A stretch of DNA of 64,000 bases from Candidatus Adamsella avium (GTDB lineage Bacteria > Cyanobacteriota > Vampirovibrionia > Gastranaerophilales > CAJFVJ01). Below the pieces are notes generated by a model. The model was not told the origin of the DNA, did not search any database, and saw only the letters and a program-made list of their open reading frames with translations. The DNA is taken from assembly GCA_904420445.1 (NCBI GenBank), contig CAJFVJ010000002.1:186001-250000 (forward strand), written 5' to 3'. Positions 47,690-64,000 of the stretch are shown piece after piece; position 1 is the first letter of the stretch, and the number at the start of each line of letters is the position of its first letter. Made by a program: the position numbers and the translations under genes.

Positions 47690-48436
47690 TTACTTCAGGA
47701 AGCTTTTGAAAGTGCTCATAGCCTGAGCATTTTTTGTTCTGCTCAGCTGACCTGCTCTGACAAGTTGTTCTTGAGGGTTTACGCTTATTTTCTGAACGGC
47801 AGGTTGTTTAGCCATTTCTTTTTCTTCTTTTCTTTTCTGTATTTTTGCTGTTATTTTCTTTGTCAGAGGAGTTGCAATTACCGGAGTAATGTATCTGTAC
47901 ATAAATGCGAAGCACAGACCAGTTGCTGCGTTTCTTGCAACACCTTTTTTGAGAGCGGCGAAATCACCGTCTTTATAATGTTTTGCTGCCCAATCCAGAT
48001 ATTTTTTGCCTTTTCCGCCTTCATTTGCTTTTTCGAAGGCGTCACCGAGTTTCCCGAACAATTTCAGAATAGGCTTATCAAGGGCGATAGCTCCTGCTGT
48101 CGGGATAGCCCAGGTTATGGCGTTGTTTATGGCGAGAGGTTTTTTGTTCTTTTCTTCTATATTTTTATTCGCAAGTGTTTGTATAATATAGAAAGAGCTG
48201 AGAACGGTGCTTACACCTATGATACACCCCTGTCTGAGCCAGCCGGATTTTCCTGCGTCGGTAACTTTTTTGATAAATTTTTCGATGCCTTTTGATTTTG
48301 CAACTTTTTCCAAACCGAGTTCTACAGTGTCGCTTAGTTTATCGCTGGCTTGTGATAGAACTTTTGGTACTCCTGTGAAGGTTACGTTGCTCTTGTTTCG
48401 AGCAGACATGTTAGGTTGAACTCTATTTACTTGCAT
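47690..48436 (-). CDS. lineage-type membrane protein with N-terminal TFTG motif
   Basis: 248 residues, no known family. The N-terminus MQVNRVQPNMSARNKSNVTFTG is polar and ends with T-F-T-G at 19-22, a pattern shared with neighbouring proteins. Hydrophobic helices lie near 70-88 (CIIGVSTVLSSFYIIQ), 105-125 (AITWAIPTAGAIAL) and 168-190 (AATGLCFAFMYRYITPVIATP). The C-terminal region is Lys/Gln-rich. AAGGAGC ribosome-binding site; overlaps the upstream gene by 14 bases. Not a typical signal peptide. Confidence 0.78.
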   Translation of the reverse strand: MQVNRVQPNMSARNKSNVTFTGVPKVLSQASDKLSDTVELGLEKVAKSKGIEKFIKKVTDAGKSGWLRQGCIIGVSTVLSSFYIIQTLANKNIEEKNKKPLAINNAITWAIPTAGAIALDKPILKLFGKLGDAFEKANEGGKGKKYLDWAAKHYKDGDFAALKKGVARNAATGLCFAFMYRYITPVIATPLTKKITAKIQKRKEEKEMAKQPAVQKISVNPQEQLVRAGQLSRTKNAQAMSTFKSFLK

Positions 48437-49151
48437 TAGCCTGCTCCTTTACTTGATTTTGTGCTGTTTGTGCCTGTTTTTCTTCAGCTTTTTGAGTTTT
48501 TTTATGGTTCGGGAAAAGAACCTTCATAATCGGAGGAATCAAAGCGACCGTAAGAGCAGCTCTGAACGGAACCAACACCATCTGTGGAGCATATTCAGCA
48601 ACCAGTTTGAAGTTGTCTGCATATTTTGCCGCTTTTTCCGCTACCTCTTCTGAGGCGTCTTTTCCTGCTTTGAGATAACTTCCTTTCATAAAATCAGGAT
48701 TATCTTTGAGTTTTTTCATTAATTTTTCTGCGCCTTTTTTGATTGGCGAGGTAATGGCAACAGTGAAGGCATAACCTATAGATGCTGATGCAATGCCATG
48801 AACTGCCGCATACTGTGTATCTTTGTCGTCTTTTCCTTTCCCTGTTGCGAGTATTGTTGCGGGTCTAAGGACACCTGCAAGAATCAGAGCTGAAAATGCT
48901 TCGACCATTGCCTGACTTTTTGACATCTTTGCAAAGCTTAAAAACGGTTTGCTGGTCAATATTTTTTGACCGATATTTCCTTGAAAGCTTGTTGTGTCAG
49001 CATTTGTTGTATTTTTTGCACTAAAAAATCCGCTCGTACTCACACTTGCGGATTTATTATTATTTTGCACACTCTTATTTTCAGCTCGCTTAATCACACT
49101 CTTAGGGCGATGCTTATAAAATTCTGATTGATGTAGCCTCGTAGTCTGCAT
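48423..49151 (-). CDS. lineage-type membrane protein with N-terminal SFQG motif
   Basis: 242 residues, no known family. A long polar, disordered-looking N-terminus ends with SFQG at 55-58. Two hydrophobic segments follow (FSALILAGVLRPATILA, about 86-102; GIASASIGYAFTVAITSP, about 119-136), and another near 196-215 (VLVPFRAALTVALIPPIM). The tail is Gln/Ala/Lys-rich. The next gene down overlaps its end, so both are translated together. Architecture matches the 248-residue neighbour. Confidence 0.78.
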   Translation of the reverse strand: MQTTRLHQSEFYKHRPKSVIKRAENKSVQNNNKSASVSTSGFFSAKNTTNADTTSFQGNIGQKILTSKPFLSFAKMSKSQAMVEAFSALILAGVLRPATILATGKGKDDKDTQYAAVHGIASASIGYAFTVAITSPIKKGAEKLMKKLKDNPDFMKGSYLKAGKDASEEVAEKAAKYADNFKLVAEYAPQMVLVPFRAALTVALIPPIMKVLFPNHKKTQKAEEKQAQTAQNQVKEQANASK

Positions 49152-51817: not shown

Positions 51818-52960
51818 GTGCAACTTGTTTCCGTAAATGAACTGGCTGATCAAAAAATTTTCTCTGTTGATTTGTATAATGAAGATGGCGAGAAATTGTT
51901 TAGTGCAGGAGAAATTATTACTCCTGGTAAGCTTATGCAGCTGAGGTCATTGGATGCTGTTTATTCAAAAGTTGACGGTGAAGAGGAGAAAAAAACGCTC
52001 AAGTCTGCCGGAGAGAATACAGATGATTTGAGTATTCAAGAAAAGGAGAATAAACCTTCTGATACTCTTAAAACCGGCACAAAAAAACAAGAATCATTGC
52101 CTGAAGCCGAAGAAGAGGATGAAACTTTTTCAAAAGATGAGTTTTCAACGGAAGAAGATGACGATGATGATGTATCAGATAATGTGTTGGAAATAGAAAT
52201 AGATGAGCAGCTGTTTAATAAACAAATAAATCTTTATTCGATTATTACTCCTGAAAATCAAATAAAGATGAAAAAAAGTTTCAAACGGGCAATGAATGAT
52301 TTCAAAAGGAAAACCTCTGTAAAAAAAGTTGATTTATTTTTGAAAACTAGAGATTTAATCCTCGAAACAATAATCCCCGTATTAGATACAATGATTTATA
52401 AGTCACAGTTGAAGATAATAGGTGATTATGATGATATTCACGGTTTGAATGTGGCGATTATGGCTGCTGCTCTGACAATAAAGATGAAAATGACAGAGTC
52501 GGAGGTGAATGATATTGTTCTTGCTGCTCTTTTGCATGACATTGGAAAAACCCGTATTGATGAGAGCATATTGAAGAAGACAAACCTTTCAACTCAGGAT
52601 GTGAACTTGCTCAACCTGCATACTCAAATAGGTTATAAGATTTTGCACAAGGATTTTCATCTTTCGGAACCGATATGCAAAGTTGCTCTTGAACACCATG
52701 AGAATAACGATGGTTCCGGATATCCTTACGGGATATCAGGGGATCTTATCGGTTTGCCGAGTCAGATTGTCAACATTTGCAACTTCTATGATAACCTGAC
52801 TTCTGAACGACTAAATTATCCCGTTAAGAATACCAAAGATGCGTTGAAGATTATACTTGAGATAGGATCCAAAAATTTCTTGTCTGGAATTTTGTATACA
52901 TTCATAAATATGACAAATTATAATGACTCAAGACCCTTCAAGAGTTTTACGGAAGAGTGA
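51818..52960 (+). CDS. HD-GYP domain protein with acidic linker
   Basis: 380 residues. N-terminal about 50 residues (VDLYNEDGEKLFSAGEIITPGKL) form a small domain, then a very acidic, unstructured linker (about 60-125, with runs of E and D). The HD-GYP domain has LLHDIGKTRIDE and EHHENNDGSGYPYG, all key residues intact, so cyclic di-GMP hydrolysis is likely. The GTG start has GGAG seven bases upstream, and the stop lies one base before the trmFO start. Confidence 0.9.
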   Translation: MQLVSVNELADQKIFSVDLYNEDGEKLFSAGEIITPGKLMQLRSLDAVYSKVDGEEEKKTLKSAGENTDDLSIQEKENKPSDTLKTGTKKQESLPEAEEEDETFSKDEFSTEEDDDDDVSDNVLEIEIDEQLFNKQINLYSIITPENQIKMKKSFKRAMNDFKRKTSVKKVDLFLKTRDLILETIIPVLDTMIYKSQLKIIGDYDDIHGLNVAIMAAALTIKMKMTESEVNDIVLAALLHDIGKTRIDESILKKTNLSTQDVNLLNLHTQIGYKILHKDFHLSEPICKVALEHHENNDGSGYPYGISGDLIGLPSQIVNICNFYDNLTSERLNYPVKNTKDALKIILEIGSKNFLSGILYTFINMTNYNDSRPFKSFTEE

Positions 52961-52961
52961 T

Positions 52962-54272
52962 ATGAAAGTTGTTGTAATCGGTGCGGGATTAGCGGGGAGT
53001 GAAGCTGCTCTTCAACTGGCAAAAAAGGGGATTGAAGTTGACTTATACGAAATGCGCCCTGAAAATACAACAGGTGCTCATAAGACAGAGAAACCTGCAG
53101 AGCTGGTTTGCTCAAACAGTCTTGGGTCAAATGATGTTCTTGTGGCAAGCGGTTTGCTAAAACAAGAATTGAGAGTTCTTGACTCAGAGTTAATAAAAAC
53201 AGCTGATGAAACGGCTGTACCTGCAGGCAATGCCCTCGCTATAGATAGAGAGCTTTTTTCTTCAAAAATAGAAGAGAAAATAAAATTAAATCCAAAGATA
53301 AACTTTATAAGAAAAGAGATAAAAAAAATCCCTGATTCAACTACTCCTGTGATTATTGCCGCAGGTCCTTTATGCTCTGAAGAGCTTTCAGAAGATATTA
53401 AGAATTTTGTTGATAGCGAATATTTATCTTTTTATGATGCTATAGCGCCGATTGTCGAAAAGGAGAGTCTTGATTTTTCAAAAGCTTTTTATGCAAACAG
53501 GTATAATAAGGGAGATGCTTCTTATATCAACTGTCCTATGAATAAGGAACAGTATTTGAAGTTTTATGATATTTTGATTAATTCCCCTAAAATAGAGCTG
53601 AAAGATTTTGAAAAAAAAGCAAAATTTTTTGAATCATGCCTGCCGATAGAAGTTCTTGCCTCAAGAGGCGTTGATACTTTGAGATATGGCCCGTTGAAAC
53701 CTGTAGGTTTGGTTGATGACAGGACAGGGGAAAAAAATTATGCTGTTGTCCAACTCAGACAGGATAATTTGTGCGCAAGTCTTTACAACCTTGTCGGCTT
53801 TCAGACCAATTTGAAATGGAGTGCCCAGAAAGAACTTTTGCAATCAATTCCGGGCATGGAGCATGTGAATATTGTCAGATACGGAGTTATGCATAAGAAT
53901 ACGTTTTTGTTTTCTCCGAAAGTGCTGAGAAGGACTCTTCAATCAAAGAAGAGAGAGAATTTGTTTTTCTGCGGTCAGATGACAGGCACTGAGGGCTACA
54001 CGGAGGCTATAGCGTCAGGACTTGTCGCCGGGGTAAATATGGCAAGATATTTGTCATCAGAAACGTTGATGGAGTTTCCTTCAATGACCATGATAGGAGC
54101 TCTTTTGAAATATATAACATATGAAGGGCATGCAACCCTAAACCCCATAAACAGTAACTGGGGTATCATCAAACAGGATGAAGAAGTGAATAAAAAATTC
54201 AGAAAAGATAAAAAATTAAAAAATGAATTTTATGCAAAAAGGTCTTTAGAATGTCTGAAAACAATAAAATAG
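52962..54272 (+). CDS. trmFO: methylenetetrahydrofolate-tRNA uracil-54 methyltransferase
   Basis: FAD/folate-dependent enzyme making ribothymidine at position 54 of tRNA. 436 residues from the internal ATG (MKVVVIGAGLAGSEAA); the GGAAGAG site and family start support it over an ATG 13 codons upstream. Further motifs are LYEMRPENTTGAHKT, ELVCSNSLGSN, PKVLRRTLQSKKRENLFFCGQMTGTEGY (split) and AIASGLVAGVNMARY. Confidence 0.96.
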   Translation: MKVVVIGAGLAGSEAALQLAKKGIEVDLYEMRPENTTGAHKTEKPAELVCSNSLGSNDVLVASGLLKQELRVLDSELIKTADETAVPAGNALAIDRELFSSKIEEKIKLNPKINFIRKEIKKIPDSTTPVIIAAGPLCSEELSEDIKNFVDSEYLSFYDAIAPIVEKESLDFSKAFYANRYNKGDASYINCPMNKEQYLKFYDILINSPKIELKDFEKKAKFFESCLPIEVLASRGVDTLRYGPLKPVGLVDDRTGEKNYAVVQLRQDNLCASLYNLVGFQTNLKWSAQKELLQSIPGMEHVNIVRYGVMHKNTFLFSPKVLRRTLQSKKRENLFFCGQMTGTEGYTEAIASGLVAGVNMARYLSSETLMEFPSMTMIGALLKYITYEGHATLNPINSNWGIIKQDEEVNKKFRKDKKLKNEFYAKRSLECLKTIK

Positions 54273-54274
54273 AC

Positions 54275-54460
54275 CTATTCTAAAATTTGTTTGAGTTTTA
54301 CTTTATTTTTTGAGATATTAATATTTGCTTTTATTTTTTGGTATTTATCATTCAATAACCATGATGAAAGGAGGTTTTCCTTTTTATCTTCTTTTGAAAA
54401 GTCAAAAGAAGAAATGTTTTCCCAACTTTGAAAAAGAAAATTCAGAGCAGTTTCATCCAT
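54275..54460 (-). CDS. small hypothetical protein
   Basis: 61 residues, Lys/Asn-rich and helical, with no known motif. The start has GGAT upstream on the minus strand, and the stop lies two bases from the trmFO stop in a convergent arrangement. Composition fits a real gene, but it is short. Confidence 0.45.
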   Translation of the reverse strand: MDETALNFLFQSWENISSFDFSKEDKKENLLSSWLLNDKYQKIKANINISKNKVKLKQILE

Positions 54461-54696: not shown

Positions 54697-54723
54697 TAAA
54701 TGTAGGTTAGGTATAGGTTGTAT

Positions 54724-55848
54724 ATGCAAGTAAGTTCTATAAATAACAATTTGGGAGCAGTTAGAAATCAGTCCAAATCCACATTTGGAGAAAGTTTAAC
54801 TGAAGTATATCCGGAGTTGAAAGAACATCAAAAAGATGAGCTTTTACCGGATACTTTTTCAGAAAAAATGAGGCTAAAGAAAGAACAGCTTAAACAGCTT
54901 CCCGGATACGTATCACGTGGTTTGCAGGGCGATCCTGATGCAAACTTTTTTGAGTTTTTGAAAATAACAAAAATCCCGTATTTTATAGGCGGTCCTGTTC
55001 TTGCGCTTATGTTTCTGGCAGGAAAAAACGGAAATAATATTACTGCAAGAAATGCAACAAATGCGGTTACAAAAAGAATAGCTCTCGGCGTTGCAATGTA
55101 TTATATTGCGGCAACAGCAGCAAAAGCAGTCATTGATATTCCTCTGAAATCTTTCAGAAATATCGATATGAACCAAAAATATAAACATATGGTCGATTTG
55201 AGAGCAGATACTCCTCTGAAATTGCCTGATAACCAGAAAGTTGAATATCATAACTGGTTAGAAAGCAAAGATTTTACAAACTTGGGACTTGCCTACAATT
55301 ACCACAAACCTGAGGCAGAAAAAATTAATTCTCAATTTGATGAAATAGCCAAAAGCTTCGGTGTAGACAGCAAAACAAAATTAAACGATTCAGACACTGT
55401 TGTAGGTGAAAAAATCAAAGAAACCATTGCTATGGCAAACGGATGGAAATATATTATTACAGCTCCTTTTGTTATGACCGGTCTTGGACTTTCTTCTCAG
55501 AAGAGTTTCCAAAAAATAGGCGGTGATATGAAAGGACACGGCATCTGGAGTGCAATAAAAGGACTCGGTAATAAAAATAAGAAACTAAAAATAAGATTTT
55601 TAGAGCTTAAAGCTTCTCTTTCAGAAAACTTGAAAAAACCTATAATCGACTCATTTAAGGAATTATGGGGTGCAAAAGATATAAATGAAGGTGTTTCAAG
55701 AACATCAAAAATTCTTGGAAGAACGGCTATTTTATCATCTTTGATTCTTCCTGCCGTTGCTGTTTCAACTATTCTTGCAAAAACCTCTCTGAAAAATCAT
55801 AAATTCCAGGAACATTCCTCTGATAATAACGGAGGTGTTCAAAAATGA
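54724..55848 (+). CDS. lineage-type membrane protein with N-terminal STFG motif
   Basis: 374 residues, no family recognised. N-terminus MQVSSINNNLGAVRNQSKST ends in S-T-F-G at 19-22. Two membrane helices are likely at about 83-100 (IPYFIGGPVLALMFLAG) and 118-135 (LGVAMYYIAATAAKAV), with others near 240-260 and at the C-terminus (AILSSLILPAVAVSTILA). The segment FRNIDMNQKY (144-153) has a counterpart in the next protein. I start at the ATG, not the TTG two codons earlier. Overlaps the next gene by ATGA. Confidence 0.78.
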   Translation: MQVSSINNNLGAVRNQSKSTFGESLTEVYPELKEHQKDELLPDTFSEKMRLKKEQLKQLPGYVSRGLQGDPDANFFEFLKITKIPYFIGGPVLALMFLAGKNGNNITARNATNAVTKRIALGVAMYYIAATAAKAVIDIPLKSFRNIDMNQKYKHMVDLRADTPLKLPDNQKVEYHNWLESKDFTNLGLAYNYHKPEAEKINSQFDEIAKSFGVDSKTKLNDSDTVVGEKIKETIAMANGWKYIITAPFVMTGLGLSSQKSFQKIGGDMKGHGIWSAIKGLGNKNKKLKIRFLELKASLSENLKKPIIDSFKELWGAKDINEGVSRTSKILGRTAILSSLILPAVAVSTILAKTSLKNHKFQEHSSDNNGGVQK

Positions 55849-58514
55849 GCAATATGATTATTCAAAATTATACAGCTGATATAATCAGTCAGAGAAAAGC
55901 GGCTGCAAGTTCAAATGACCCTTCTATAGCAGCTTTGAGAGTCGGCGCAAAACCTCTCCAGCCAAAAGGCAGATTGATACCTTCAAATATGTGGGAATCA
56001 ACAAAATATGCAGTGAAGAAACCATTTCAGGAAGCAAAGTTCTTTGTTGAAGCCGCTCAGGGAAAAGGTAATGATTATTCAATAGGAAGAATAAACGACC
56101 TTGGTCTGAAACTGGGAAGTCTTGGAATTGCTGCAATTCTTGCTGCCAGCGCAGCATCTCCGTTCAAAAAAGGAATGGAGTTCGTAGGATTTGCTACATG
56201 GTTCGGTTCTATGGCTCTTTGGCCGAAGTTAGTCGGTTCAGCTGTTAAATTGACAAAGGGGTTTGACCCCAATCAAAAATATGAAGACAGCTACGGCAGA
56301 GTAAAGCCCTTCTTCCAGGATCCTCAATATATTTGCTGGGAACTCTATGATAACGATAAGCTGAATGAAGTAGGTGATAAACTAGGTATTCCGACAAATA
56401 TAGAAAACAGAGAAGGTGCAATCAGAAGCAAAATGCAGCAAATTGCAACTCAAAGCAATACATGGACTATGTTAACTGCCGGTTTTGCAACGCCTATTCT
56501 CTCAAGTTTGCTTGCTGATCAACTCGGCAGCAGAGTTTTTGATCCTGCAGTAGAAAAATTTATGATAGCAAAAGCAAGAAGAGGTTTTGAAAAAGAACCG
56601 TCTTTAAACAAAGATTTTCTCTCTGATATAGATGTGACATTGAAAAATACTCAATATATTACAGAGGGTACAAAAGATAATCTTATCAAGAAAATATCCT
56701 CATCTATGTTGGGAGTAAAACTTAATGATGAAGTAGGAAAAGAACTTGATCATCTCTTTGACGGTGCTTCAGACAGAATTAAAATTACAAAAGATTTGTA
56801 TGAGAAAGTAGATAATCTTCTTGGCGTTACAGCTAACAATGAAACTAAAAAAATGCTGGTAGGCTTTATAAACGATCAATTAGCAGGCGAAACAGAAGCA
56901 TTCATGCCAAAGAAAGAGTTTTCTCGTTTCCTCAAAAAAGTAGTTATTCAATCTACGCCTGTCAAAGATATTGATAAAAGCGTTCTTCTCAGAACTATTG
57001 CGGATGAGGTATTTACAGAAAGCAGAGAAATAAAGATTCCTGAAAATCTGTATGATGATTTTAGAAATCTATATGCTGTATCCGGTACATATTATGATAG
57101 AAAGAAACGTCTTTTAAAATTCTTATCTGCAACACTTAATGATGTAGACGGCTCAGCTACTGCAAACAATTGGAAGAAGGCATCTTCTCCGTTGGTGAAA
57201 GCTCTCGGATTCAGCAATGATGAGCTTCAAATTTTGGCTAATCAAAAAACACCGGCCAAAACAGCTGATGATATTGTGACAAGAAGAATGAAAAAAATTG
57301 TTTCTTCTCCTGAACAATCAGCAGAAGCAATCAAAGGCATTGTCAAATTCTATTCTTCTTCAACAGCAAAAGATATGAAACTTGCTCAAGAAGCTTTGAG
57401 ATATATAGACGGAATGGAAAATATGACATTAAAACAGCTTGGAGAACTCGAACAGCATTCAGGCAAACGCTTTACAACTCTTGCAGGCGGCTTATCAAGA
57501 TCGTTGAACAGCGATAGAACTCTTGTCGCAAATAAAGTGTTCAATACTCACCTTTCTTTCTCAAGACCGATTACTGCGATGAACATTTTATCAAAGATTT
57601 CTGACGGTTCAGATCCTGATATAATGAATCTTGTGAAAGAAGTTTATTCTCCGGTTGATCTGGCTGATAAACAAAAAGTGGCAAATGTCTCAAGAATGCT
57701 GAAAGATATTGTCTTCAACAACGAAGATGCTAGTTCTTTCTTCAATAAGTTTGAACAATACGATTTATTAAAACCTAAAGATAAAGAAGGTTTGGCAAGA
57801 TTGATGGATGTCCTTTTTGCTCCGCTTAAACCTGAAATAAGACAGCAGCTTTCATCAGAAGTTGCTGATCAGATAGATGATTCAAATCTCATAATGAAGG
57901 TATTGTACTCATCTCTTGAAAATCCGATTAAACCAGAGTTGAATATGACTTCATTTGATGAATTGAAAAAGGTTAAGAATGTTAAACTTCTTGAGATGGC
58001 TAAAAATTACATAGGCCTTGAATTTAGAAATGATTCAGATGACACTATTAAAAAATTCTGGCAATATCTCTCAGATAATGGCAAATTTAAAGACTTCTTT
58101 GTTTTATTAAAACAGGAAGCCTCAGATGTCGGCGAGCTCGAAAAACACTCGGATAAATTTGTTGAATTCTTCAAGAAGAACGCAACAAGACTCTGGTGGC
58201 AGACAGGTCAAAAGGTAGAAGGTAATACAGAGATGGTTAAAGAATTAACACAAACAGTAAATTCTTCAATGAGCGGATTCAAACGCTTTACTATCAATGA
58301 TGCTACTATGTCTGCTGGTTTGGGCTTTGTTGATTTTGTCAAAAAGGCAGCAAGTGACACTGTATCATATAAAATATGGTTAAAACGTGCCGGCATGGCT
58401 GCTGCGGTATTAACTGGAGTTACAGCAATAGGTATAGCTCTGATGGGAAGAAAAAATAAATTTAATACTGATGTATATGAATATAAAAGGGAAGGAGTAA
58501 ACAATGCTAAATAA
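55845..58514 (+). CDS. large hypothetical membrane-associated protein
   Basis: 889 residues, no family recognised. The N-terminal about 180 residues carry two membrane helices (about 88-105 and 112-130) and a segment GFDPNQKYEDSY near 139-150 that aligns with the preceding protein, so the two probably share a paralogous N-terminal module. The next about 680 residues are hydrophilic and helical. A membrane helix near the C-terminus (AGMAAAVLTGVTAIGIALMG) is followed by a short basic tail. Strong GGAGG ribosome-binding site. Coupled at both ends. Confidence 0.78.
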   Translation: MSNMIIQNYTADIISQRKAAASSNDPSIAALRVGAKPLQPKGRLIPSNMWESTKYAVKKPFQEAKFFVEAAQGKGNDYSIGRINDLGLKLGSLGIAAILAASAASPFKKGMEFVGFATWFGSMALWPKLVGSAVKLTKGFDPNQKYEDSYGRVKPFFQDPQYICWELYDNDKLNEVGDKLGIPTNIENREGAIRSKMQQIATQSNTWTMLTAGFATPILSSLLADQLGSRVFDPAVEKFMIAKARRGFEKEPSLNKDFLSDIDVTLKNTQYITEGTKDNLIKKISSSMLGVKLNDEVGKELDHLFDGASDRIKITKDLYEKVDNLLGVTANNETKKMLVGFINDQLAGETEAFMPKKEFSRFLKKVVIQSTPVKDIDKSVLLRTIADEVFTESREIKIPENLYDDFRNLYAVSGTYYDRKKRLLKFLSATLNDVDGSATANNWKKASSPLVKALGFSNDELQILANQKTPAKTADDIVTRRMKKIVSSPEQSAEAIKGIVKFYSSSTAKDMKLAQEALRYIDGMENMTLKQLGELEQHSGKRFTTLAGGLSRSLNSDRTLVANKVFNTHLSFSRPITAMNILSKISDGSDPDIMNLVKEVYSPVDLADKQKVANVSRMLKDIVFNNEDASSFFNKFEQYDLLKPKDKEGLARLMDVLFAPLKPEIRQQLSSEVADQIDDSNLIMKVLYSSLENPIKPELNMTSFDELKKVKNVKLLEMAKNYIGLEFRNDSDDTIKKFWQYLSDNGKFKDFFVLLKQEASDVGELEKHSDKFVEFFKKNATRLWWQTGQKVEGNTEMVKELTQTVNSSMSGFKRFTINDATMSAGLGFVDFVKKAASDTVSYKIWLKRAGMAAAVLTGVTAIGIALMGRKNKFNTDVYEYKREGVNNAK

Positions 58515-60384
58515 TATCTCTTATATTCCTTCTTATTATTCAGGCAATATGTTTCAGAGCAATCTGCAAACAACGGCTCCATCATATCAGACTGTTAGTA
58601 TGACAAGTCCTCAAACACAGGCATTCTATTCAATTCCTGCCATTACATCATACTATCAACCTCCTGTTCTTGCTGAACAATATAATAAACAGGTTGCAAG
58701 TAATGCTTATTCGAATACAGTGCAGCCTGCCGCTGCAACATCTGTTACACCTCAAAAAAAGATGTCACCACTGTTGGAGAATTTTATGAAAACACAAAGA
58801 CCTGACGGCGTTTCTCAGGTTACTCTCGAACCTCAAAAAACGTCAGCAACTCCATATAAAAATCATCTGAGAACACTCTTCCAGAATAACGAAGCCGTTA
58901 TTTATGCAATGATACCAAGAACTTTCAACGCAAAAGATACAAACGGTGATGATATAATCGACGGAGGAGAAGAATCGGGAACGTTCCTGAATGCAATAGA
59001 ACGTCTTGATGAACTGGTAGGATATGGCGTTAATACAATTCATATGCTTCCGATTCATGAACCCGGGATGGAAGTTGCTCTTGGAACAGCAGGTTCTATT
59101 TATGCGCCGAAGGATTATCTCGGAATAGACCCGAAACTGGATGACCCGAATGATCCTCGCAGCGTAAAAGAAGAGGCAAAACAGTTTATAGATGAATGCC
59201 ATAAACGCGGTATAGCCGTAATGATTGACTTACCGAGCTGCGCTTCTGTTGATATGTACAAGGCAAAACCGGAACTGATGGCAACAGATGAGAAAGGAAA
59301 CCCGAAAACACCGCAGGGATGGGATGACATCAGAATGTTTGACCCTTGGCAGGATGAAGCCAAGAGAACCCTGAATAAAGAACTCGTTGATTATCACAAA
59401 CGAGTCATCGATCTCTATCAGGAACTCGGCATCGATGGTATCAGAGCCGACGTTGCAAGGGCGAAACCGGTAGAATTCTGGGATGAAATCATTCCTTATG
59501 CAAGAAGCAAAGACCCTGAATTTGCATTCCTGGCAGAATCTTATACTTATGAAGATGCATCTCCGATGCTGAATATGCCGAAAGACAGACCGGAAGATTT
59601 GCTTGCCGCAGGCTTTGACTCTTATTACGGTCAGTATCACATATTCAACGAATGGAAAACAGGCAAGGAATTGAATGATTATGTCATTGAAAACCTTGAG
59701 ATGTCAAAGCGTCTTCCGAAGGATAAGTCGTTAATCGGCTCATTTGCAACACATGATGATAAGAGTCCGATGACAAACGGAGGAGCACCTTATTGCAATA
59801 TGACAACAGGGCTTCAGATGACGCTTCCGATGACAAATCCGTATTTTGTAACAGGATTTGAATCAGGTGACCGTTATGTATATAAATTCAGAGATAAAAT
59901 CGCAAGAGAATCTGATACGGGCAATCTGAAATACTTTGTACACAACGAAAAACTCGATTTGTTCAACAAATCAAGAAGACCGGGTGGAGAAAATCCTGAA
60001 ATCGGTGAGTTTATGACTGCTATGTCAAAAGTCAGAAAACAATATAATGATATTATCACCAAAGGGTCTTTCATTCCTCTTGATGAAAAAAGAGGAGATG
60101 GAGAAAAAATTATCTCTTATGCAAGAAGTTTGAATGGAAAAACTCTCTTGATAGTAGCAAACAAAGACGTAAATGCCGCTCATAAAGCAAGTGTTACAGT
60201 TCCCGGCTTAAGACCGGATCAACAGCTTAATGATTTGGCTCCTGTTTATACAAAAGGTGATAATATTTCAGCCGCAGAAAACAGAGTAGAGTTGGAATTG
60301 GCGCCAGCCAGTTTCCATGTGTTTGAAATAAATACTCCAAACATAGAAAAAGAAGCTAAAGGTGTTTATAAACAAAATTTATAG
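58504..60384 (+). CDS. glycoside hydrolase family 13 enzyme
   Basis: 626 residues: a polar Ser/Thr/Gln/Tyr-rich N-terminus of about 125 residues, then a GH13 (alpha-amylase superfamily) barrel. Nucleophile D316 is in GIDGIRADVARAKP, acid/base E345 in FLAESYTYED, and the third acid D418 in FATHDDKSP (H417 present, N replaced by T). Region I MIDLPSCAS (D242) lacks the usual His five residues on. The overall order resembles the GlgE-like maltosyltransferase group, which is inference. No signal peptide, so probably cytoplasmic. GGAAGGAG site; overlaps the preceding gene by 11 bases. Confidence 0.88.
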   Translation: MLNNISYIPSYYSGNMFQSNLQTTAPSYQTVSMTSPQTQAFYSIPAITSYYQPPVLAEQYNKQVASNAYSNTVQPAAATSVTPQKKMSPLLENFMKTQRPDGVSQVTLEPQKTSATPYKNHLRTLFQNNEAVIYAMIPRTFNAKDTNGDDIIDGGEESGTFLNAIERLDELVGYGVNTIHMLPIHEPGMEVALGTAGSIYAPKDYLGIDPKLDDPNDPRSVKEEAKQFIDECHKRGIAVMIDLPSCASVDMYKAKPELMATDEKGNPKTPQGWDDIRMFDPWQDEAKRTLNKELVDYHKRVIDLYQELGIDGIRADVARAKPVEFWDEIIPYARSKDPEFAFLAESYTYEDASPMLNMPKDRPEDLLAAGFDSYYGQYHIFNEWKTGKELNDYVIENLEMSKRLPKDKSLIGSFATHDDKSPMTNGGAPYCNMTTGLQMTLPMTNPYFVTGFESGDRYVYKFRDKIARESDTGNLKYFVHNEKLDLFNKSRRPGGENPEIGEFMTAMSKVRKQYNDIITKGSFIPLDEKRGDGEKIISYARSLNGKTLLIVANKDVNAAHKASVTVPGLRPDQQLNDLAPVYTKGDNISAAENRVELELAPASFHVFEINTPNIEKEAKGVYKQNL

Positions 60385-60485
60385 AAATTAATAATAAAAT
60401 GTAATAATTTCTTTAAAAAACGGCAATTTTTTTTCATGTTTTACGTTATCACAATTATAGGGAAGTGTATAAAAAGGGAAGCTCT

Positions 60486-63400
60486 ATGTTTTATGTATCA
60501 TCAATAAACGCTGTAAATCCAAATAAAAATAAATCTTTAGCAACAACAAGACCTGATAAAAGACAGTCAATAGGGTTTAGCGGTCATAAGATTGTAGAAA
60601 ACGACCATGGAGAACGTTTATATAACTTCTATCTTCCTAATGCAAGATATAATGATGCAAAAGTAGAGCTTGTAAGACTTCTTAAAGATAAAAACGGAAA
60701 TATAATTGATGTCGAAAATATCAATGAAGACGGCACAGGCAGAAAATATCAAATTCCGCTTGATAGAAACAATAAAGCCGTATTCAATCCGAAAGACAGT
60801 GATGTTTATCTCGGTTCTGAAGATGACGATTTTATTCTCGGATATAGATTTATCGTAGATGGCAAACCATATACGGATAATCTCCAAAATGCTACTGTTG
60901 ACGGAGAAACGTACAATATAGCTCAGGGACTTTATGCATCTTCTCTCAAGGGACCTCAAACGATGTATCACGTTGTTCCCTATAATATGAATCCGAAAGG
61001 TGAAAATAAAAAGGTCAGAAGACTTGGTGAAGATGACTTTATAGAATTTAACACGAACAACTGGCGTTCTACTCATTATACAAACTACGGCGGTACAATC
61101 AGAGATATAGCAGATGCTGTTCCATATATTAAATCAGTCGGAGCAAAAAATATCATGACAACTCCGCTGTTTGCATCAGGTCCTCTTCCTATAGGATATT
61201 GGACAAATAATGCTTATCAGCTGAAACCGTCGCTCGGTACCGAAAAAGATTATAAAGACCTTGTCGTTGATTTGTATAAAAACGGAATGGGTTTGATTCT
61301 TGACGGTGCTTTTGTCAATGAAGGTTTGGAAGGAATACACCTTATTGACGTTCATAAATATGGTGCAAATTCTCCGTATTATAACTGGTTTGAATTTTTT
61401 GGCAACGAAAATGAACCTATAGGATATGGAGTTTTACCTCTTGATGAAACAGCTAAAGATAACTGGGATATAAGAATTATCAACAGTCCTCGAGTTTGGA
61501 ATGTTGATGAAAACGGTATGCCAAGAGCAACACATGGTGCAAAAAACGAAAGCTATGACCCGACACAACCGACTTATATTCAGCTCTTTGACAGAAGATT
61601 GACCTCTGTAGAACAACTCGACAGACAAAAATTATTTGATAAATATGATATTGCAAATGTTGAAGATCCGAATGAAATAAAAGACTATATGGATGGAGTA
61701 CAACCATATAAATTTCAGGTCTCAGCAGAGGAATTGGAACAGAAATTCAGAAAATATGAAGATGCTGATGAGTTCAAATATTCTCTTCTCGATTGGGATA
61801 AATTCTCATTGACAACTTCAAATAAAGATAGAAAAGCCAATCTTTGGGTCGGCAACAAGGATATTGCAAAATTAAGATTTATGACTCCTCAAGATAAACT
61901 TGCCGAGATATATGAAAATGCTGGCGGAGGAGAATCAGGTGCTCTGAAAGTTGCAGCCGTCAAAAAAGCTGAAAAAGAAGTTCAGGATTATATTGTCGGT
62001 ATAGGCGAATATTGGACAAGAAAAACTTCAAATATTATTAATTCTTATAATGCCCAACAACTGCAGGGCGCAAAGACGGTTGATGAGTATAAAGCGAAAA
62101 TCAAGGAAGCTGTAGAAAAAGGAAAACTTCCTCAAAGTGTTTTATCTCTCTCAAATCCATCAGATAAAACTCTTGAGAACTATATGACCGGTGATTATGA
62201 TTATTACAATATTCCGGCTCCTGTTGCTTCTATCGAAGAAGGTCTAAAAGCCTTTCCACTTGAATCTATAGAATTTTCTCCTGAATTGACATCAATTCTC
62301 GGTTCACCTGTCTTTAAAAAACTTGCTGAAGATAGAATTTATAACGGTGCACTTAAAGCAAAAACAATAGAAGTACTGGGGATGCTTGACCGTTCAGATA
62401 AAACAGGACGCAGACTATTATCAGGTGATAGACTGAATTATAATAACGCAGAAGTCTATGATTTGATTTCTGATGATATTACAAAATTTCTTATCGTTAA
62501 TGCGTTGACTGATTCATATTTTGATAATGATGACCATCAGGATGTACAGAGATTGAATCAAATAAGTCTCAATAGTCTTGATATTAAAGGTTCTTCTCAT
62601 GAAGAAGTCGCAAGAAAACTTGTCGCTAGATTGGAAGAAGGTTTAAATTCAATAAATATAAACAAACTCCAGCCTTATGTCGAATATCTTGAAAAAGATG
62701 TTATTAAAGGTGCTAGTGCCGAGGATTTGAGAGTAGCAAAACTTCTTTCTGATAAAGCTCAGGCAGGTCTAAACTGGCGTATTGACGCAGCAAAAGATAT
62801 TGCTGATATAGAAAGTATCGGAACTAAAGCAAATTCAGAAGAATGTATGGATGCAATAATCAGCTTCTGGAATAAATTTAACAAAGGCGTTGATAAATAC
62901 AATAAACATGCTTACAAAATCGGTGAATTTACAGATGCAGGCATATTGGCTTCAGGCTCACCCAAATATCCTAACGCAGGAACTGTCGAAGAAAAATTTG
63001 TAGAGGATTCCGGATTTACTACTCAAACAAACTACAACTATCAATATTCGATTCTGCATGGTATATACGGCGGATTCCCTGAACTTGGAAGCGGTGAAGG
63101 CGGATACAATGCTCCTATTGGTAAGTTGACTGAAAAACTCCTTTACGCATGGAATGGTTCACCAGGCTTCTTATTCAGCGGACCGAAATACAATGTCAAT
63201 AACTCACACGTCGCTGGTGGCAACCATGACAAACCTAGAATTCATCATGGGTTTGCTCTGAATTCCAAACTTGCTTATGCAAGTTATATGGGCAGCAAGC
63301 TTGAACCATCAGTTACCGATGAACTCAAAGATATGATGGAAGGTTCTGAGTTCTATACTCCTTATATCGAAGAAGCTGTCAGAATTAATGATGAAATATC

Positions 63401-64000
63401 AAAACTATACGAAAAAGAAAAAGAAGGAGAACTGACAGGCGAACAAAGAGCTCACCTTGTTAACCTTAAAGAACAGGAACGTCTTTCAGTCGGAAACAGA
63501 TTGTTCAAAATTGTATCTCCGGAAGCGCTTGCAATGGAAGCAGCAATCTTGGATGCAGTAAAACAAACACTGCCTGAAAACACTCCTGAAAAATATATGA
63601 CACAGTTTATACAAACTGTTGATGATATGGCAAAAATAAGAAATAATGGTGAATATTTCGCTGTTAGAGGATTCCAGGATAACTGGAAAGATATTCTTAA
63701 TGCAATGCCTGAGGGTGCAGCAAAAGAATTTTTCTCAACAAAAGTGAAAGAAGCCGATGTAGAAGAAGCATTCTTGAAACCTGCTATGATAAAAGGCGAT
63801 GCAATGTATTTCTTAAAAGCTCTTCTCCCCGGTACTCCTACCTTGTTCTCAGGTGATGAACTAGGACTGACAGGTTTTGAATCAAAATCCAAAAACCAGT
63901 ATCTTCAAAACAGAGGAAGAGGTCGCTTTGAATATATAGGCGGAATGGTTGAGGCCGAAAACAGAAACAGAAAAAATCCTGAATATAGAAAATATGCTGA
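60486..64000 (+). CDS. large GH13 enzyme, 3' end outside window
   Basis: At least 1171 codons with no stop before the window edge. The polar N-terminus MFYVSSINAVNPNKNKSLAT ends in F-S-G at 31-33. A beta-rich module (about 45-150, like a carbohydrate-binding/CBM48 domain) precedes the barrel. GH13 regions: I at D273 (LILDGAFVNEG), II nucleophile D767 (LNWRIDAAKD), III E814 (IGEFTDAG), IV N913-H914-D915 (GGNHDKPR), and a late GTPTLFSGDELG. About 390 extra residues lie between regions I and II. No signal peptide. GGGAAG ribosome-binding site; about 100 bases after the previous stop. Confidence 0.88.
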   Translation, partial: MFYVSSINAVNPNKNKSLATTRPDKRQSIGFSGHKIVENDHGERLYNFYLPNARYNDAKVELVRLLKDKNGNIIDVENINEDGTGRKYQIPLDRNNKAVFNPKDSDVYLGSEDDDFILGYRFIVDGKPYTDNLQNATVDGETYNIAQGLYASSLKGPQTMYHVVPYNMNPKGENKKVRRLGEDDFIEFNTNNWRSTHYTNYGGTIRDIADAVPYIKSVGAKNIMTTPLFASGPLPIGYWTNNAYQLKPSLGTEKDYKDLVVDLYKNGMGLILDGAFVNEGLEGIHLIDVHKYGANSPYYNWFEFFGNENEPIGYGVLPLDETAKDNWDIRIINSPRVWNVDENGMPRATHGAKNESYDPTQPTYIQLFDRRLTSVEQLDRQKLFDKYDIANVEDPNEIKDYMDGVQPYKFQVSAEELEQKFRKYEDADEFKYSLLDWDKFSLTTSNKDRKANLWVGNKDIAKLRFMTPQDKLAEIYENAGGGESGALKVAAVKKAEKEVQDYIVGIGEYWTRKTSNIINSYNAQQLQGAKTVDEYKAKIKEAVEKGKLPQSVLSLSNPSDKTLENYMTGDYDYYNIPAPVASIEEGLKAFPLESIEFSPELTSILGSPVFKKLAEDRIYNGALKAKTIEVLGMLDRSDKTGRRLLSGDRLNYNNAEVYDLISDDITKFLIVNALTDSYFDNDDHQDVQRLNQISLNSLDIKGSSHEEVARKLVARLEEGLNSININKLQPYVEYLEKDVIKGASAEDLRVAKLLSDKAQAGLNWRIDAAKDIADIESIGTKANSEECMDAIISFWNKFNKGVDKYNKHAYKIGEFTDAGILASGSPKYPNAGTVEEKFVEDSGFTTQTNYNYQYSILHGIYGGFPELGSGEGGYNAPIGKLTEKLLYAWNGSPGFLFSGPKYNVNNSHVAGGNHDKPRIHHGFALNSKLAYASYMGSKLEPSVTDELKDMMEGSEFYTPYIEEAVRINDEISKLYEKEKEGELTGEQRAHLVNLKEQERLSVGNRLFKIVSPEALAMEAAILDAVKQTLPENTPEKYMTQFIQTVDDMAKIRNNGEYFAVRGFQDNWKDILNAMPEGAAKEFFSTKVKEADVEEAFLKPAMIKGDAMYFLKALLPGTPTLFSGDELGLTGFESKSKNQYLQNRGRGRFEYIGGMVEAENRNRKNPEYRKYA

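Follow-up and report, generated by a model that had tools for sequence, protein, structure and literature searches.

A probable four-gene unit of Gastranaerophilales pairs two putative membrane proteins outside known families with two GH13 enzymes

Introduction

To our knowledge, the known bacterial glycogen operons are not organised at the membrane. The accessible text of a 2024 review of prokaryotic alpha-glucan enzymes nowhere mentions membrane-bound or transmembrane components, and a literature search found no paper describing the operon reported here, which is weak evidence of absence. Among the enzymes that resemble those of the operon, members of GH13_48 and GH13_49 (Haloarcula alpha-amylase type) end region I with NH and close region VII with GQ, and 81% of them have a Cys directly before the nucleophile; GH13_49 also has [WY]-[GA] at the end of region II and an Asp before the acid/base (PMC11239784). 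In GlgE (GH13_3, alpha-1,4-glucan:maltose-1-phosphate maltosyltransferase), the phosphate-binding residues are N395, K355, N352 and Y357 in S. coelicolor numbering (PMC4526890).

The locus lies in a 64,000-nucleotide stretch of Candidatus Adamsella avium, hereafter the window. The Gastranaerophilales, to which this organism belongs, live in the gut, have been seen almost exclusively in metagenomes, and fall in a class of non-photosynthetic relatives of the cyanobacteria. The unit (P1-P4) possibly has its substrate in common with the classical glg glycogen operon, but it contains none of GlgA, GlgB, GlgC and GlgP and has two membrane proteins instead. The enzymes belong to a known family; as far as tested, neither the membrane pair nor the four-part arrangement has been described before. 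Our preferred reading, to which we give somewhat better than an even chance, is that P1 and P2 build a scaffold in the inner membrane on which P3 is held, that P4 is a partner, and that the assembly remodels alpha-glucan there.

Results and discussion

Gene layout and transcription unit

Open reading frames were called mechanically, and the flanking DNA beyond the window was read to obtain the 3′ end of P4, which the window cuts at residue 1178 of 1340. This listing recovered the coordinates of the four open reading frames given in a preliminary description of this DNA, which had also placed the start of P4 about 100 bases after P3, a distance that holds when counted from ATG 60486. The unit and its borders comprise the following features.

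54387..54412 (L003 387-412), + strand: terminator-like hairpin between the upstream gene (52923-54272) and P1; consensus match only
54724..55848, + strand: P1, membrane protein of no known family with four hydrophobic segments; 374 aa from ATG 54724, or 376 aa from the in-frame TTG 54718
55845..58514, + strand: P2, membrane protein of 889 aa with no known family or fold (ORF and homologue profile)
58504..60384, + strand: P3, GH13 enzyme of 626 aa without signal peptide (ORF and family scans)
60465..64000, + strand: P4, GH13 enzyme of 1340 aa starting at GTG 60465 or ATG 60486; continues to 64487, 487 bases beyond the window
64489-64530 (L003 10489-10530): strong terminator-like hairpin with T-tract, 2 bases 3′ of the P4 stop

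P1 and P2 overlap by 4 bases (ATGA), and P2 and P3 by 11 bases. The upstream hairpin, about 300 bases 5′ of P1, sets the upstream limit of the unit, as a consensus match only. Since hairpins lie both 5′ of P1 and 3′ of P4, the transcription unit is probably exactly P1-P4. The overlaps and flanking terminator-like hairpins, together with the conserved order reported below, agree with the earlier view of the four genes as one unit.

Beyond the P4 terminator lie P5, a third GH13 gene (784 aa, TreZ/GlgB-like), and a thioredoxin-like gene. P5 was not accepted as a further member, since it is cut off from P4 by a strong terminator-like hairpin and adjoins the P1-P2-P3 trio only within the same genus. 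A second DNA match, of 34 bases at L002, was chance-like and was set aside.

Membrane proteins P1 and P2

Averaged over 53 P1 and 60 P2 homologues, each protein showed four hydrophobic peaks, and the segments were only moderately hydrophobic (mean Kyte-Doolittle 1.07-1.72). Three of the hydrophobic segments of P2 are N-terminal and the fourth is C-terminal, with a long all-helical domain between them; P1 differs in having no such helical domain between the third and fourth segments. Profile alignment identifies P1 and P2 as paralogues (hhalign probability 96.4%, E 1.2e-9, 195 columns), with the homologous module placed as follows.

54826..55530, + strand: P1 module homologous to P2, residues 37-271 counted from TTG; paired hydrophobic helices, DMNQKY loop and third hydrophobic helix
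55959..56561, + strand: P2 module homologous to P1, residues 39-239; has DPNQKY

The preliminary description had defined a shared module by its D-x-NQKY string. The module itself is common to both proteins, but the literal string is that of the window's genome, and the relatives mostly have D-x-N-x-x-Y in P1 and N-x-x-Q-x-Y-E-D in P2.

Neither P1 nor P2 matched any family in Pfam or NCBIfam, and the 53 P1 and 60 P2 homologues searched one by one against Pfam gave only single stray matches (E of at least 0.002). The AlphaFold2 models had mean pLDDT values of 76 (P1) and 73 (P2) with the same helix order in both, and neither had a Foldseek match in the PDB at E<=0.001, a search in which the moderate model quality may have caused a fold to be missed. 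The first reading of the two membrane proteins as lying outside recognised families is thus upheld, with no known unrelated family matched. A BAR-domain likeness of P1, which recurs among the weak fold matches, was discarded as consisting of long-helix matches only, with E above 0.5. Positive-inside comparison did not fix the orientation of P1 or P2 by the charge balance around the segments; with an even number of segments, both termini would lie on one side of the membrane, and the N-terminus has no signal peptide.

The main rival to a scaffold is that P1 and P2 are a new carrier or channel for malto-oligosaccharides, with P3 (and P4) processing the incoming sugar. A homologous multi-segment pair that is fixed together could be a heterodimeric carrier, an enzyme fused to P2 (see below) would fit a coupling of transport to processing, and the secreted P3 paralogue of family f2 points to activity of a P3-type enzyme outside the cytoplasm as well. 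However, P1 and P2 have only four moderate hydrophobic segments each, no transporter or ATPase family and no transporter fold (E<=0.001) was matched, and P2 is dominated by its long helical domain; we regard a carrier as unlikely. Under the reading we prefer, P1 and P2 together would form a scaffold or platform in the inner membrane.

Enzyme P3

Family scans assigned both P3 and P4 to GH13, and neither protein has a signal peptide, as the preliminary description had proposed. P3 begins with a polar, variable N-terminus of about 110 aa, followed by a strongly conserved catalytic domain that matches PF00128 above the cut-off; the identity of P3 across the order, outside its own genus, is 49-61%. 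The catalytic residues are located as follows.

59449..59451, + strand: P3 catalytic nucleophile D316 (GIRADVAR), invariant in alignment A1
59536..59538, + strand: P3 general acid/base E345 (FLAESY), invariant
59755..59757, + strand: P3 transition-state Asp D418 (THDD), H417-D418 invariant

R314, D316, E345, H417 and D418 were invariant in 15 sequences, and the GxR and HD (region IV) features of GH13 are present. Region I reads DLPSCA, with D242, P244, S245 and C246 invariant, so that D-L-P-S-C replaces D-x-x-x-N-H and the near-universal GH13 region I His is missing. By this alignment, P3 seems to represent a GH13 clade in which the customary His of region I is absent.

Among solved structures, P3 is closest to PDB 4GKL, a GH13_48 maltogenic amylase from Thermotoga neapolitana (E 6e-26); the other nearest ones are the maltosyltransferase 1GJU and GlgE, and the best NCBIfam match is the haloarchaeal MalA model (E 1.7e-16). 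P3 has the same GxR...D, E and HD frame as GH13_48 and GH13_49, but it has no NH at the end of region I, has a membrane partner, and carries an invariant Ala315 (Val or Ala in fused homologues) in place of the pre-nucleophile Cys. The end of its region VII, an alignment placement made by eye, appears to be NPYFVTGFE as against GQ, and it differs from GH13_49 in having GIRADVARA in region II and LAE before the acid/base. Assignment to GH13_48 or GH13_49, the nearest by score, was rejected, both the region I NH and the pre-nucleophile Cys being absent. GlgE was considered for its similar stretch from nucleophile to acid/base (regions II-III), in which AKPVEFWDEIIPYARSKDPEFAFLAESYT of P3 aligns with 29 residues of GlgE, and was likewise rejected: none of the four phosphate-binding residues is kept, with V317 in place of N395, Q271 in place of K355, K at or next to the position of N352, and W273 in place of Y357.

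Genomes of family f2 encode a second P3-like GH13 protein of ~515 aa that has a signal peptide and is unlinked to the trio (L208 7221-8768, L209 6561-8108). It is probably an exported counterpart.

Enzyme P4

P4 was compared with 17 homologues drawn from several families of the class, and it also matches PF00128 above the cut-off.

62784..62786, + strand: P4 nucleophile D774 (NWRIDAAKD), invariant in the 17 homologues
62925..62927, + strand: P4 acid/base E821, invariant in the 17 homologues
63228..63230, + strand: P4 transition-state Asp D922 (NHD), H921-D922 invariant in the 17 homologues

Its nearest families and solved relatives belong to the cyclomaltodextrinase/neopullulanase group of GH13, with the likeness at the barrel start. 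P4 shares the intact triad of this group but is over twice as long, with large insertions; ~490 residues, mostly without any match, lie between region I and the nucleophile.

The GH13 proteins might act on something other than an alpha-glucan, for example in glycosyl transfer to a lipid or protein at the membrane, which would suit a P3 that has no region I His and falls outside the described subfamilies tested. Against this, the triads of P3 and P4 are intact, and the nearest solved relatives of P3 (maltogenic amylase, maltosyltransferase, GlgE) use alpha-1,4-glucan or maltosyl donors; we judge such a substrate very unlikely. We return to alpha-glucan as the favoured substrate below.

Conserved order and P2-P3 fusion

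We inspected the neighbourhoods of 20 diverse relatives and 80 named loci; P2 was found in 54 of 60 relatives. P1-P2-P3 were contiguous in the same order and on the same strand at 71 of the 80 loci, and seven more ended at a contig edge. One of the remaining loci was rearranged to P3-P1-P2 (Candidatus Caenarcanum), and at L150 P3 was found by tblastn, being absent from the ORF list. The gap between P1 and P2 was at most 2 bases in all 71, and P2 and P3 overlapped in 48. The order first described for a single genome is thus conserved in relatives. Flanking genes vary between families, and the trio is therefore a unit in itself and does not belong to a longer conserved block.

A class-wide search detected P3 in two further families, f9 and f15, placed outside the order, and P1-P2-P3 were present in 11 of the 11 loci fetched from them. 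In a draw of 194 genomes across the phylum, all 85 P1-bearing genomes belonged to the same order (f9 and f15 not being among the genomes listed). P4 adjoins the trio in families f1, f4 and f6 and at six f9 loci, and its linkage therefore spans the class.

P2 and P3 form one ORF in three f9 genomes (L211, 986 aa; L213, 1030 aa; L217, 1082 aa), in which a P2 match in the first half is followed by a hydrophobic segment and then the full GH13 domain. These fusions argue strongly that P2 and P3 act together, with P3 next to the membrane, and they supply the physical link between membrane protein and enzyme that the preliminary description had supposed. At the level of predicted proteins, the P2-P3 link is well supported, and the fusion lends indirect support to P3 being bound to the membrane through P2. 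P2 would anchor P3 on the cytoplasmic side, its C-terminal hydrophobic segment being the one that directly precedes P3 in the fused homologues. The natural fusion also makes the physical link directly testable. One f9 genome (G081) has two P1-P2-P3 copies, one fused (L211) and one unfused (L210).

Joint presence and absence

P2 was missing from six genomes of the order, drawn from three families (G004, G010, G012, G015, G021 and G023), one of them 99% complete. Sensitive alignment searches, with E-values of the whole-genome searches calculated per genome, showed that P1 and P3 were missing from the same six and found in controls; P1 was not found by alignment search in one control genome (G019, 66% complete). 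Same-genus relatives (g5, g13) differ, so several losses of the system were probably independent.

The alignment search of the 60 genomes found P4 in none of the six P2-less genomes and in 51 of the 54 P2-bearing ones; the two trio-bearing genomes in which it was not found are G025 (88% complete) and G044 (99% complete). The co-occurrence of P4 and P2 had a Fisher p of 1.7e-6 overall and 2.2e-5 in genomes at least 90% complete, both values being optimistic owing to shared ancestry. In the largest family, the P4 gene is not linked to the trio. This joint retention and loss, which the window alone could not reveal, makes it very probable, together with the P2-P3 fusion, that the four proteins work together; P4 is counted in the system because it shares the pattern of P1-P3, and P5 is not.

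A chance gene order, in which the membrane proteins would have nothing to do with the enzymes, is contradicted by the class-wide order, the overlaps, the fusion and the joint absence even of an unlinked P4, and is extremely improbable.

Alpha-glucan context and proposed function

MalQ-type GH77 is nearly universal in the relatives and GlgA is present in most of them, which supports an alpha-glucan as the substrate; full-length phosphorylase is rare among the relatives. A search of the window's genome found no canonical GlgA and no full-length phosphorylase, and the link to stored glycogen is therefore not direct. The same genome encodes a divergent protein of 754 aa that resembles starch synthases and begins with a long polar stretch (L090 7661-9925; G000:C3:515891-516886). 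At the relative's locus L050, the neighbours include a glgC-like gene (by its N-terminal sequence) and a thioredoxin-like gene.

The system could alternatively make or trim a cell-envelope or exported alpha-glucan and not an internal one. In f2 the gene upstream of the trio is undecaprenyl-diphosphatase-like (by its N-terminal sequence), and the membrane placement and the large extra regions of P4 would be in keeping with such a role; yet this neighbour is limited to f2, with other neighbours elsewhere, and P3 and P4 have no export signal. We rate an envelope role as distinctly unlikely.

To return to the preferred scaffold, P4, as a second active-looking GH13 enzyme, would work in the same pathway as P3, and the complex would cut or transfer alpha-1,4-linked glucan or maltodextrin at the membrane. 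We infer the action on alpha-glucan, the cytoplasmic facing and the scaffolding by P1 and P2 from the genes and their relatives. Of the membrane complex for glucan storage or remodelling suggested in the preliminary description, the unit and the membrane-enzyme link are supported, and the stored-glucan substrate and the choice between storage and transport are still conjecture. More tentatively, and with less than even confidence, we suggest that P1 and P2 may found a new membrane-protein family, a dedicated alpha-glucan platform unlike the described glycogen, starch and Sus-type systems and inherited across the class as a four-part module. The system is near-universal in Gastranaerophilales, and the proposal gives two conserved membrane families of unknown fold a testable role; if true, an alpha-glucan pathway would be organised at the membrane.

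Additional observations

In the window's genome, several polar N-termini end in [ILVT]-x-F-x-[GA] (VTFTG, TSFQG, IGFSG, INFRG, LNFGG, LSFTG, VNFGA), a tag carried by P1, P4, P5 and others. N-termini of this F-x-G type occur in the window at 47690-48436 (-), 48423-49151 (-), 54718-55848 and 60465-64000, and at L090 3208-9925; the F and G of the P4 tag are invariant in its 17 homologues. Genome statistics were computed on stretches: 12 of 103 polar N-termini of the window's genome carried the tag against a shuffle mean of 2.0, for a pattern picked after inspection and with one stretch chosen for another reason, and it occurred in none of 65 polar N-termini from three other genomes. As a post hoc pattern absent from those three genomes, the tag was not accepted as a sorting signal and is a lead only; it is possibly a lineage-specific sorting signal, or a selection effect.

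A long polar N-terminus with an F-x-G motif is also found on a 1059-aa FtsH-like protein (AAA and M41 peptidase; L185 10740-13919), and likewise on a 797-aa DHH-family protein (L186 303-2696). Two adjacent proteins (L090 3208-4023 and 4041-4967) weakly resemble the PARP catalytic domain, both scoring below the cut-off (E 2.6e-4 and 1e-3). At L004 4722-11879, four of five consecutive genes encode glycosyltransferases that share a near-identical start (SVIVPVYNVEKYLSKCLESIINQTYQNLEIICVDDGSTDSSPKILEEYAKKD) and diverge afterwards, and their N-terminal parts may reflect recent duplication or conversion.
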